Of a stretch of 21,123 nt of DNA, positions 1,481 through 14,109 are shown piece after piece. How positions within the stretch are numbered: position 1 is the stretch's first letter; each line of letters opens with the position of its first letter. The position numbers and the translations under genes were made by a program. Source of the DNA: a virus. The stretch is taken from positions 1-21,123 of the IMG/VR virus record IMGVR_UViG_3300012351_000031; one strand, given 5' to 3'. The notes under the pieces were generated by a model. That model searched no databases. It worked only from the letters and a program-made list of their open reading frames with translations, and had not been told where the DNA came from.

Positions 1481-1978
1481 TTAAACTTTAGTCCTAAAGA
1501 CATAATCCCACAATGGGGAAGTGACTCCATAATTCATTTCTATTCCAGTCTCATGATGTAAATTATGATTACGAATAAGAGGCTTCATAAATCGATATGG
1601 AAGAGTCTTTGGTCTGTGCATAAAGAAATGCATGGTAATATAGCACAAATATCCTGTAGAAAAACCAATAAAGAGTGAGGCAACACCTAGGTAGGATGAT
1701 ACGACATATCCAACAAGATACATCAAAAAGATCTTCCAACCTTGAATACCGATATACTCTTCTACATCCATATGATGCATCCAATGATCTCGGCGATACA
1801 TTTTATGAAATATGAAACGATGAATAAGATATTCAGCTAGGCTCCATCCTAACATACCCAAGACAAATTGCCATGAGACAAATGTCACGAAGAAGAGAGC
1901 TGTCAGGATAAGGAATGGAATTGTAACAAAATCAGTAAAGTACTGTCTCTTATTCATCTTCCATGGGCTATTATACAT
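1481..1978 (-). CDS. Fatty-acid-hydroxylase-superfamily (sterol-desaturase-like) membrane protein
   Basis: A 165-aa integral membrane protein carrying the histidine clusters of the di-iron fatty acid hydroxylase superfamily: HRFIFH (53-58), HWMHH (65-69), HFFMH (117-121) and HNLHH (138-142). Hydrophobic stretches lie near 17-45 and 82-116. Members hydroxylate or desaturate lipids or carotenoids using O2; the length fits the short bacterial type. ATG 1978 is chosen over the GTG one codon earlier because SD GAGGAAG is then correctly spaced. It lies between two tRNA-Ser genes, whose ends abut its stop. The enzyme class is a confident call. The substrate, perhaps a host membrane lipid or a LPS acyl chain, is unknown. 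Confidence 0.85.
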   Translation of the reverse strand: MYNSPWKMNKRQYFTDFVTIPFLILTALFFVTFVSWQFVLGMLGWSLAEYLIHRFIFHKMYRRDHWMHHMDVEEYIGIQGWKIFLMYLVGYVVSSYLGVASLFIGFSTGYLCYITMHFFMHRPKTLPYRFMKPLIRNHNLHHETGIEMNYGVTSPLWDYVFRTKV

Positions 1979-1995
1979 CACTTCCTCTTGTGTAT

Positions 1996-5178: not shown

Positions 5179-5254
5179 TGGTGCTCTCTGTCAGATTCGA
5201 ACTGACCCTGGACGGCTTCTTAAACCGCTATCTCTACCGCTGGATTAAGAGAGC
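5179..5254 (-). tRNA. tRNA with apparent AAG anticodon (Leu-like, short variable loop)
   Basis: Acceptor GCTCTCT/AGAGAGC, A73, CCA and T-arm GTCAG/TTCGAAT/CTGAC are canonical. Anticodon stem GCGGT/GCCGT (two wobbles) encloses TTAAGAA, giving AAG. The variable loop is short, unlike bacterial Leu. The 3' end of the HNH gene overlaps its 5' half. Confidence 0.78.
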
Positions 5255-7395: not shown

Positions 7396-7470
7396 TGGTG
7401 GACCTTATGTGAATTGAACACAACCCTCCCTCTCCGGAATGAGGGCGCATTACCAAATGCTTTAAGGCCC
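7396..7470 (-). tRNA. tRNA with 8-nt anticodon loop (CCG Arg or TCC Gly)
   Basis: Acceptor GGGCCTT/AAGGTCC, A73, CCA; D-arm AGCA/ATGC is normal. The anticodon stem CCCTC/GAGGG is perfect only if the loop is ATTCCGGA, eight bases. T-stem pairs four of five. The G3-U70 pair with A73 is the alanine identity pair, though the anticodon is not Ala. Confidence 0.78.
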
Positions 7471-7839: not shown

Positions 7840-8192
7840 TTGATAGTAAGCCTGAGATTACAGCTAACATAACAGATCGTCCCGCATTATCCCTAAGGCT
7901 GCTAAGCCTACGGCCACGAAGGGCATTTAAGGGTTCTCGGACATCCCGGAAGCATTACCTCCGCATCTGTCAAGGTCGCTTTATTTTAAGTGGCAGCGTT
8001 TCCACTTTCACGTCGAACTACTCTCCGTTCATTGATCCACCAACCTTGCGAGCTGTTCACAGGCGCTAACCCGTTATGATTCTTCGAACAAGAAACAACA
8101 TCCGCCTTGCGAGCCTCAGTTGCCAACATTACCCATAGGGCTGTTGGATTTGACCTTTTACGTTCGACGCATTCCTAGACTTTGCGTTTTTG
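7840..8192 (-). ncRNA. Gene-free structured region, module 2 of a putative ornate RNA
   Basis: No convincing frame on either strand. Hairpins seen: CCAACA/TGTTGG (8123-8147) with inner CCC-TAT-GGG, AAGTGG/CCACTT (7988-8007), AGGCT-TAGC-AGCCT (7896-7909) and TTCTT-GTTCG-AAGAA. The decamer GCTCGCAAGG, a GCAA tetraloop motif, occurs at 8044-8053 and 8105-8114. It continues the folded region beyond the tRNA-like gene at 8193. Confidence 0.5.
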
Positions 8193-8266
8193 TTATACTG
8201 GTGGGATTTGAACCCACTGTTTTCTGCTTGATATGCAGACGACCATCCAATTAGTCATCTAGTGTA
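8193..8266 (-). tRNA. tRNA-like gene embedded in the structured region, apparent anticodon ATC
   Basis: T-arm GTGGG/TTCAAAT/CCCAC and anticodon arm TCTGC/ATATCAA/GCAGA are perfect. The acceptor TACACTA/CAGTATA has two mismatches, there is an extra base before the D-stem (GAC/GTC), and CCA is missing. The loop reads ATC (Asp GAU), which is rare since A34 is almost unknown outside Arg. It may be a decayed tRNA or part of the larger RNA. Confidence 0.55.
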
Positions 8267-8806
8267 GAACTTACCACGATGTGCTAGGTTGATGCCTCGA
8301 ATCCTTTTGGGAAACAAGATACATCACACCGCCTGTCTTTTGCCTTGCGAGCTACTTAACCATACTTCAAGATTTCGTCTCTCTTTCAGTTGACGAGAGC
8401 CGTCTTCTCTTATATTGCGGGTTGCCTTTGGCTGCGAACCTCAGACTCTGTTCCCCACTATACGTTACATATAACCACTGAACTTGTTTGCGTGTAAGGT
8501 ACTCCTTGCGGGAGTTTGACTTCAGCATGCTTTCACAGAGGCCGTCATCTTCTCCTTTCGAAACCCTACCAAGTCGTCATGTCTACCCCCACGGTAAAAT
8601 GAGGGCCCGTCGCCGGGAATGCCGTACTTGCTTGAATGGATCTGTTGTTCAGACGATGCTATGTAAGCTTCACATCTTTGGCCGAGTTGCCCCGGTTTAT
8701 CCTGATGACCTCAAGCGGCCATTACTCTTACTAAATAGATTAGAAACATGAAGGACGCTTAAGCGTCTGCAAATTCCTTCACCAAGGCGCGTTGTTTGTT
8801 TCTAAT
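8267..8806 (-). ncRNA. Gene-free structured region, module 1 of a putative ornate RNA
   Basis: 540 nt without a credible gene, starting at the base after the tRNA-Val CCA. ATTAGAAACA/TGTTTCTAAT (8739-8748 with 8797-8806) closes a domain with TGAAGGA/TCCTTCA and GACGC-TTAA-GCGTC. GNRA tetraloop hairpins include CCCG-GCGA-CGGG (8606-8617) and ACTCC-CGCAA-GGAGT (8501-8515); GCTCGCAAGG recurs at 8343-8352. Size, multi-hairpin make-up and place among phage tRNAs recall GOLLD or ROOL RNAs; not proven. Confidence 0.6.
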
Positions 8807-8880
8807 TGGTACTCCCTAGCGGAATCGAACCACTACCCTCGGTATGTAACACCGGTGAACTGCCATTATGCAAAGGGAGC
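8807..8880 (-). tRNA. tRNA-Val (TAC)
   Basis: Acceptor GCTCCCT/AGGGAGT with G1-U72, A73, CCA. Anticodon stem CCGGT/ACCGA (one mismatch) around GTTACAT; T-arm AGTGG/TTCGATT/CCGCT. Confidence 0.85.
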
Positions 8881-9338: not shown

Positions 9339-9367
9339 ATAATAACAGGGTGTAAAACATTTGTCAA
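9339..9367 (-). promoter_or_regulatory. Sigma70-like promoter, leaderless start
   Basis: TTGACA 9367-9362, 17-bp spacer, TATTAT 9344-9339; ATG of the next gene at 9332. Preceded by ACCAC as at 10636 and 16654. Confidence 0.8.
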
Positions 9368-12637: not shown

Positions 12638-12711
12638 TGGCGATCCGTAGGAGTTTCGATCTCCTGACAACTGTTAGACAGACAGTTATGTTACCATTAC
12701 ACTAACGGACC
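12638..12711 (-). tRNA. tRNA-Asp (GTC)
   Basis: Acceptor GGTCCGT/ACGGATC, G73 as usual for Asp, CCA. Anticodon arm ACTGT/CTGTCTA/ACAGT; T-arm AGGAG/ATCGAAA/CTCCT. Confidence 0.92.
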
Positions 12712-12902: not shown

Positions 12903-12909
12903 AGCACAC

Positions 12910-12980
12910 AAATCACTATGGGACTCGAACCCATATTAACCCCTGTCACGGGGCCGTCCTAGCCATTAGACGAAGCGAAC
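12910..12980 (-). tRNA. tRNA-like gene, apparent anticodon GAC
   Basis: T-arm ATGGG/TTCGAGT/CCCAT and D-arm GTCT/GGAC are clear and Glu-like. The anticodon hairpin CCCC/GGG(G) leaves GTGACAG or a six-base loop; GAC is the likeliest reading. Acceptor GTTCGCT/AGTGATT has a T-T mismatch and a wobble, and CCA is missing. It could be degraded. Confidence 0.6.
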
Positions 12981-13048
12981 TCACCAAAGAGAGGTTTGCA
13001 GACCCGTGCTTGGTGGTGTGTTACTCCCAAAATCCAAACCCTGCAAGG

Positions 13049-13457: not shown

Positions 13458-13531
13458 TGGTGGAGTAATCGAGAATCGAACTCAATGACAGTCGCTGTGC
13501 AAGAGCAACCCGCCACCCCATGGCCTACCCC
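13458..13531 (-). tRNA. tRNA-Ala (TGC)
   Basis: Acceptor GGGGTAG/TTACTCC with the G3-U70 identity pair, A73, CCA. Anticodon arm TTGCT/CTTGCAC/AGCGA; T-arm TTGAG/TTCGATT/CTCGA. Confidence 0.92.
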
Positions 13532-13533
13532 AT

Positions 13534-13626
13534 TTATCTTATGCTCAACTCCCTGGAATCGAACCAGGCTCGCGAACGTTAACAGCGCAGCTGCACACCT
13601 TGTGCATTGAGTTGAGCGTAAGATAA
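13534..13626 (-). repeat. 18-bp inverted repeat extending the acceptor stem of tRNA-Asn
   Basis: 13534-13551 and 13609-13626 match in 17 of 18 positions when one is reverse-complemented. The inner seven pairs are the tRNA acceptor stem, the outer ten are flanking sequence. Confidence 0.8.
13544..13615 (-). tRNA. tRNA-Asn (GTT)
   Basis: Acceptor TCAACTC/GAGTTGA, D-arm TGCA/TGCA, anticodon loop CTGTTAA on a weak stem, T-arm CCTGG/TTCGATT/CCAGG, G73. No CCA is encoded; the helix continues into the flanks. Confidence 0.85.
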
Positions 13627-13632
13627 AAATAG

Positions 13633-13640
13633 TATTTATA
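13633..13640 (-). promoter_or_regulatory. Late-promoter-like box TATAAATA
   Basis: Exact consensus, directly upstream of the tRNA-Asn repeat and at the 3' end of the structured RNA. Confidence 0.45.
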
Positions 13641-14074
13641 TATAGTAACTTTTCGCTCCGTATACCTTGGCTTCCTAGCCTCCGTATAGTACAAGGGTCA
13701 TTAGCACCGCGATAGGTAATGCTAACTTGTCCGTTTACACTCTTGAGTTAGGGGTACCTTCTACATACTGTAGAAGTTAATGCCGCTCTAAGAGCCGATT
13801 GTCGTTACTTATAGAGGGGAAAGGTTTTGTCTATCTGTCCCCGCTCCTGCGGGTCAGAGACCAGCAGAAGTATTAGAGTAGAACGCCTTCGATCCCGAAG
13901 GACATCATATTACGCAAAGGCTCTTGGCCTCTGGGTGATATGATAGTAGTATTTTTACTGCGTTCTAACATTAGCATCCTTGAGTAAATGAATGGGGCTT
14001 ACGTTTCCACTCGTGTTTCGGCCCCATTCGGTACTTTAAATTCTTTCGTGATCAAATATTCTATATCGTTCTAT
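13641..14074 (-). ncRNA. Putative structured RNA of about 430 nt with its own promoter
   Basis: No credible gene. Nested helices TAGAACGC/GCGTTCTA (13879-13886 with 13960-13967), ATCATAT/ATATGAT (13904-13910 with 13938-13944) and CCTTCG-GGAT-CGAAGG form a multibranch domain. Others: GAATGGGGC/GCCCCATTC (13990-14029), CCCG-CAGGAG-CGGG, TTAGCA/TGCTAA and CTTCTAC/GTAGAAG. Several loops hold GGA. The promoter at 14109 points into it, and tRNA-Asn and Ala follow on the same strand. Possibly an ornate phage RNA. Confidence 0.6.
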
Positions 14075-14109
14075 TTATACAGCATACACGGTTAAATCGG
14101 GTATGTCAA
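14072..14109 (-). promoter_or_regulatory. Sigma70-like promoter with adjacent TATAAATA
   Basis: TTGACA 14109-14104, 17-bp spacer, TATGCT 14086-14081; TATAAATA follows at 14079-14072. It points into the structured RNA. Confidence 0.78.

Follow-up and report, generated by a model that had tools for sequence, protein, structure and literature searches.

A GOLLD RNA gene in a phage tRNA array

The window, i.e. the whole stretch of DNA that was analysed, is a linear IMG/VR virus contig of 21,123 bases in which ARAGORN detected 23 tRNAs. Between positions 7840 and 8806 we found no credible gene on either strand, in agreement with the preliminary description of this DNA; the sole ORF of at least 60 aa inside the region was a mechanical 87-aa frame on the plus strand (8488-8751, TTG start). 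Read on the minus strand, the region begins directly after tRNA-Val and includes another ARAGORN tRNA, the embedded tRNA-like unit reported before. The repeat GCTCGCAAGG, noted previously, is present in three exact copies (0.02 expected), and its stem-bearing variant was likewise recovered. The promoter-like site upstream scores 11/12, with 6 such sites found vs 5.1 expected. The features are as follows:

9339..9367, minus strand: promoter-like TTGACA-17-TATTAT with TG, preceding small ORFs, tRNA-Val and GOLLD (by consensus match alone)
8807..8880, minus strand: tRNA-Val(tac), immediately upstream of GOLLD (ARAGORN)
7849..8806, minus strand: predicted GOLLD RNA gene, whole element (putative 5′ end at 8806; homologue support from about 8746)
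8739..8806, minus strand: 5′ terminal stem-loop, 10-bp ATTAGAAACA/TGTTTCTAAT (8806-8797 with 8748-8739) around GACGC-TTAA-GCGTC, mostly beyond the homologue-shared region
8333..8746, minus strand: GOLLD 5′ domain (nhmmer homologues joined to the 3′ domain; 16-sequence covariation)
8502..8514, minus strand: CTCCCGCAAGGAG hairpin, the stem-bearing variant
8343..8352, minus strand: GCTCGCAAGG copy 1, within the 5′ domain (exact repeat)
7849..8332, minus strand: GOLLD 3′ domain (RF02032, model 1-416/416)
8284..8288, minus strand: linker-closing helix, 5′ strand CCTAG (92-sequence alignment: 99.5% of the helix paired, with 10 additional types of pair)
8267..8283, minus strand: 5′ flank of the tRNA slot, CACATCGTGGTAAGTTC (family form CACATCGCAGTAGGTT)
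8192..8266, minus strand: putatively captive tRNA-like domain, ARAGORN tRNA-Asp(atc), with acceptor mismatches and no CCA
8230..8232, minus strand: anticodon AUC (A34) of the tRNA-like domain, in a 7-nt loop (8234-8228)
8180..8191, minus strand: 3′ flank of the slot, AAAAACGCAAAG
8174..8178, minus strand: linker-closing helix, 3′ strand CTAGG, pairing with CCTAG 8288-8284
8105..8114, minus strand: GCTCGCAAGG copy 2, aligned to ggcuCGCAAggcc of the GOLLD consensus (exact repeat and Rfam alignment)
8044..8053, minus strand: GCTCGCAAGG copy 3 (exact repeat)
7849..7862, minus strand: conserved GOLLD 3′ end TGTAATCTCAGGCT (Rfam alignment)

A large ornate RNA of the GOLLD or ROOL kind beside tRNA genes had been suspected here, and a covariance-model search had been proposed. 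Using cmscan against Rfam, the minus strand from 8332 to 7849 matched GOLLD (RF02032) from end to end with 154.4 bits (E 5.6e-43), which is barely above the curated gathering threshold of 150; ROOL and HEARO gave no match even at E up to 1. The threshold was passed by all 16 relatives tested. The record holds no other GOLLD. Phage origin, the position within or beside a tRNA array and a length of about 800-960 nt are shared with known GOLLD RNAs (RF02032). The region is thus almost certainly a GOLLD RNA gene, which would be transcribed leftwards in the phage tRNA array.

The Rfam GOLLD model leaves the 5′ half uncovered, which could favour a new class of ornate RNA. However, nhmmer found relatives of this half (8806-8333) that are directly joined to the GOLLD 3′ domain (L186, 3e-19; L196; L144; L064), and in 15 other GOLLDs the conserved 3′ domain is preceded by a homologous 5′ domain with compensatory changes. 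The RNAalifold consensus of 16 sequences contained 93 pairs, with 89.6% of cells paired and two-sided changes in 77 pairs; since it was predicted on the same alignment, these counts are biased in its favour, although many pairs are compensated. Homology starts around 8746, and the relatives do not cover the 5′-most 60 nt, including one arm of the perfect 10-bp stem. Joined to the 3′ domain in relatives and carrying compensatory changes, the 5′ half (about 8746-8333) belongs, on the sequence evidence, to the GOLLD element.

Compensating changes among homologues, named beforehand as a test of the proposal, are therefore present both here (77/93 consensus pairs) and in the slot helices described below. 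The dense folding that had been pointed out holds insofar as structure is supported by the covariance-model match and the compensatory changes; the folding energy was not above chance, with z −0.76 for the 967 nt and −0.80 for the 5′ half vs shuffles, and hairpin density alone is therefore insufficient for a claim of structure. Of the two options put forward, new member or new class, the first applies: the element is a divergent addition to GOLLD, with 60% identity to its nearest relative in the sampled tree, and does not form a class of its own. Given the full-length GOLLD match, a new class or a member of ROOL or HEARO is extremely improbable, and we rejected these candidates as refuted by the sequence evidence. 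ROOL resembles the element in being phage-borne, located beside tRNA islands and an RNA-only cage; its sequence is unrelated.

Elsewhere in the window, a second gene-free stretch of about 430 nt (13640-14075, minus strand) had a folding energy of z −4.2 vs shuffles (0/100), with a TTGACA/TATAAA-like promoter ahead of it around 14111-14075. It had no Rfam match and is possibly a separate structured RNA. ARAGORN and Rfam missed at least two tRNA-like sequences at 13460-13605 (minus strand), one with a 7-bp GCTCAAC/GTTGAGC acceptor and one ending in CTCCACCA. The 68 nt at about 13542-13610 (minus strand) share 82% identity with a segment of 26 records from Caulobacter phages (phiCbK group), in one of them a tRNA-Ile, which may hint at the kin or host of the phage. 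The anticodons of two tRNAs (7396-7470 and 12909-12981, minus strand) were read by ARAGORN as four and two letters (tccg, ga), and a tRNA-Leu(aag) is located at 5179. A protein with a fatty acid hydroxylase domain (PF04116, 1.4e-16) is encoded at 1481-1981 (minus strand), an unusual phage cargo.

A tRNA slot in the GOLLD linker

The embedded tRNA falls in the unpaired, insert-bearing stretch of the GOLLD model, which is the linker between the two domains. The element shares with env-38 GOLLD (RF02032), known as a 14-mer from cryo-EM, a 3′ domain matched end to end, a separate 5′ domain and a variable linker between them (PMC12286853). It differs from env-38 in its divergent sequence; moreover, the linker of env-38 is short and disordered, whereas here it holds a tRNA-like domain. 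In the cryo-EM work, the linker lies inside the 14-mer, and tRNAs are sometimes present there (PMC12286853).

Pattern scans of IMG/VR for conserved GOLLD 3′ motifs yielded about 200 candidate stretches, 114 of which were retained by an iterated nhmmer profile. Scanning for the slot flanks, with or without a tRNA between them, gave at least 120 viral contigs with at least 91 distinct slots plus that of the window, all matching the GOLLD profile. The linker of relatives reads ...GCAACTGxGxCAGCACATC..AGTAGGTT-(tRNA)-AAAAACGCAAAGACTGxCxCGGT..., with GxGxCAG pairing with CTGxCxC. No close relatives were found via a neighbouring protein, and blastn of the region against isolated phages gave no match. 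We also searched genome contigs for prophage relatives with the slot pattern; none of the 11 matches had a GOLLD signature, and on reading they were judged to be chance matches.

In the alignment of 92 sequences, the closing helix was 99.5% paired, and the inner four acceptor pairs and the D, anticodon and T stems were 90.5-99.1% paired; the values were 67-87% after column shuffling and 21-62% when partners were slid. The window unit has fully paired anticodon and T stems. In a set not chosen by the slot, ARAGORN found a tRNA in the slot of 31/39 GOLLDs of a long subclass vs 0/67 of a short subclass. The elbow of the linker tRNAs is conserved, with GG in the D-loop of 80/82 and TTCRA in the T-loop of 79/82. 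A group of linker tRNAs to which ARAGORN is blind (L315, L323, L332, L369, L370, L377 and L387) has a shortened D-loop and an altered T-loop; these would be later stages of tRNA decay or adaptation.

Among cultured phages, Phaeobacter phage MD18, phage DSS3_MAL1 and Sinorhizobium phage Phosso have a threshold-passing GOLLD whose linker contains a tRNA-like unit with an Arg(TCT)-type loop. The GOLLD of Roseobacter phage DSS3P8 (150.7 bits) is without a recognisable unit of this kind. In several phages, a tmRNA gene of the permuted or alphaproteobacterial type lies downstream of GOLLD (L425, L426 and L427, which are cultured roseophages, and L178).

Acceptor stem and anticodon of the linker tRNAs

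The comparison covered 82 distinct linker tRNAs and, from the same loci, 1183 distinct free ones. Acceptor registers derived from ARAGORN ends or from a fixed D-stem length were unreliable, the latter for free tRNAs too, and a best-register rule was used for both sets instead. Mismatches in the linker vs free tRNAs amounted to 43% vs 5% at pair 1-72, 55% vs 1% at 2-71 and 39% vs 1% at 3-70 (p 6e-21, 1e-48 and 1e-32, values that treat related sequences as independent and are to be read as effect sizes). At pairs 4-69 to 7-66 the two sets did not differ (n=82 and n=1183). An encoded CCA was found in 3/82 linker tRNAs vs 1059/1183 free tRNAs. A smaller comparison of 31 linker with 546 free tRNAs gave the same acceptor picture. 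ARAGORN favours intact tRNAs; therefore, its bias runs against the finding of acceptor defects. A few linker tRNAs look near-intact or bear CCA (L105, L192 and L317 are examples), and these could be released from GOLLD.

The embedded unit of the window does not form a seven-pair acceptor stem and has two mismatches in either register tried, one close to the tip and the other further towards the base, so that it fits the pattern of the subfamily only loosely. It lacks CCA, which is encoded in 18/22 free tRNAs of the window. Bacteria read Asp codons with GUC; the anticodon AUC (A34) for Asp is not in normal bacterial use, and a normal tRNA-Asp(GTC) is located at 12638. The linker unit of MD18 and DSS3_MAL1 carries the annotation tRNA-Arg but differs from the tRNAs next to it in its short acceptor and its lack of CCA.

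The unusual feature of the linker tRNAs is the combination of a conserved body with a free anticodon. Among pairs of tRNAs with at least 90% identical bodies outside the anticodon loop, the anticodon differed in 17/38 linker pairs vs 1/305 free pairs; when each tRNA was used once, it differed in 8/19 linker vs 6/193 free pairs (p 2e-6). Per site, linker tRNAs differed by 0.19 in the anticodon and free ones by 0.016; for stems and other loops, the values were about 0.03 and about 0.05, respectively. Identical bodies with changed anticodons were found in L344 Asn(GTT) and L390 His(ATG), in L329 Lys(CTT) and L378 Arg(TCT), and in L150 Pro(TGG) and L391 Ser(TGA). On a tree of the GOLLD flanks with the slot left out, at least 27 anticodon changes were needed among 56 members. 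Stop, A34 or non-triplet anticodons occurred in 12/82 linker vs 22/1192 free tRNAs, and U36 was enriched (61/78 vs 406/1182, counts in which kinship is uncorrected). The anticodon loops keep the form of a tRNA, mostly CUNNUAA or close to it. The embedded anticodon was unrelated to the free tRNAs at its locus (18/46, compared with 20 after shuffling). The clade of the window (L317, L346, L373, L138 and the window) contains solely odd linker anticodons (ATG, ATC, CTA, an 8-nt loop and TCA), with the grouping unsure owing to long branches in the GOLLD-flank tree.

The GOLLD flanks of the same pairs differ mostly by 10-30%, similar to the divergence of the anticodon. The anticodon rate therefore fits relaxed constraint as well as diversifying selection.

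Probable captive tRNA mimics and their possible roles

Because the outer acceptor pairs are broken, CCA is lost and anticodons are swapped on near-identical bodies, the linker units are probably captive, uncharged mimics. We regard it as likely, judging by these features, that the linker tRNA is captive and does not decode. A precedent exists in Mycobacterium aubagnense, where a pseudo-tRNA inside GOLLD gave no detectable tRNA product (PMC6582537). Both that GOLLD and ours lie within a tRNA array and have a defective internal tRNA. The M. aubagnense GOLLD, however, is one bacterial case, whereas the defect described here is systematic in phages, affects mainly the outer acceptor pairs and is accompanied by anticodon turnover.

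The opposite reading, a working tRNA that is excised from GOLLD, completed and then serves in translation, would explain why many linker units are called tRNAs by ARAGORN and Rfam, why GenBank annotates tRNA-Arg in the linkers of MD18 and DSS3_MAL1, and why a few units have a near-complete acceptor and CCA. It is nevertheless very unlikely, since the outer acceptor pairs are broken in about half of the units, CCA is almost never present, in contrast to 90% of free tRNAs of the same loci, and the anticodon changes without the body, stop and A34 anticodons included. Moreover, the free tRNAs of MD18 and DSS3_MAL1 end in CCA, but the linker unit does not.

In the reading that we prefer, and consider on balance probable as a whole, GOLLD carries captive, uncharged linker tRNA mimics as bait or adaptor. 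The RNA would assemble into the known 14-mer cage with the linker tRNA inside; this tRNA would be neither excised nor charged but stay in the RNA and present its anticodon arm. Each cage might then offer up to 14 mimics, as bait or as adaptor, to anticodon-arm-reading proteins, of which anticodon nucleases of the host are the most plausible. A bait for such nucleases would explain the fast anticodon on a fixed body. A role as bait is conceivable at a tentative level. It would fit the known phage-host conflict over tRNAs, in which phage tRNAs with altered anticodon loops evade anticodon nucleases (PMC10264068). Those tRNAs resemble the linker units in their variable anticodon loop and their occurrence in phage tRNA arrays; however, they are proposed to be working and nuclease-resistant (PMC10264068), whereas the linker units of GOLLD form part of a large RNA and their acceptors are defective. 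More specifically, this GOLLD subfamily might be an anticodon-programmable decoy, with one unchargeable mimic per monomer inside the cage and an anticodon that the phage adjusts to whichever tRNA-cutting or tRNA-modifying defence its current host has, although we regard this version as rather doubtful.

About as likely as the bait role is that the unit is a structural filler, a tRNA body that helps GOLLD to fold or fills the cage and whose idle anticodon drifts once charging is lost. The body is conserved and covarying, the anticodon and the GOLLD flanks change at roughly equal rates and odd anticodons are enriched, all of which such a filler would account for. It is also consistent with the lack of an ARAGORN tRNA in 67/67 short-subclass and 8/39 long-subclass GOLLDs, from which it follows that the cage does not require a tRNA. 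On the other hand, the retained tRNA form of the anticodon loops and the excess of U at position 36 relative to free tRNAs (again with kinship uncorrected) do not correspond to a random spectrum, and a filler need not keep the D-loop GG and the TTCRA motif, yet both are kept in more than 95%.

The GOLLD cage was solved with the linker unresolved (PMC12286853). GOLLD itself, its place by tRNA genes, a possible internal tRNA and one pseudo-tRNA case are already known. In the literature searched, which was mostly open-access, we found no earlier description of outer acceptor pairs being lost systematically, of anticodons turning over while the body stays fixed, or of the two subclasses. To our knowledge, no function of GOLLD has become known since its discovery. 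Taken together, the tRNA body, the broken acceptor tip and the labile anticodon in one subfamily make a specific function of GOLLD testable in cultured phages, and an anticodon-programmable decoy, if true, would give GOLLD a function. Some public phage ‘tRNA genes’, such as the tRNA-Arg of MD18 and DSS3_MAL1, probably belong to GOLLD rather than being tRNAs, which would affect studies of phage tRNA content and codon use.
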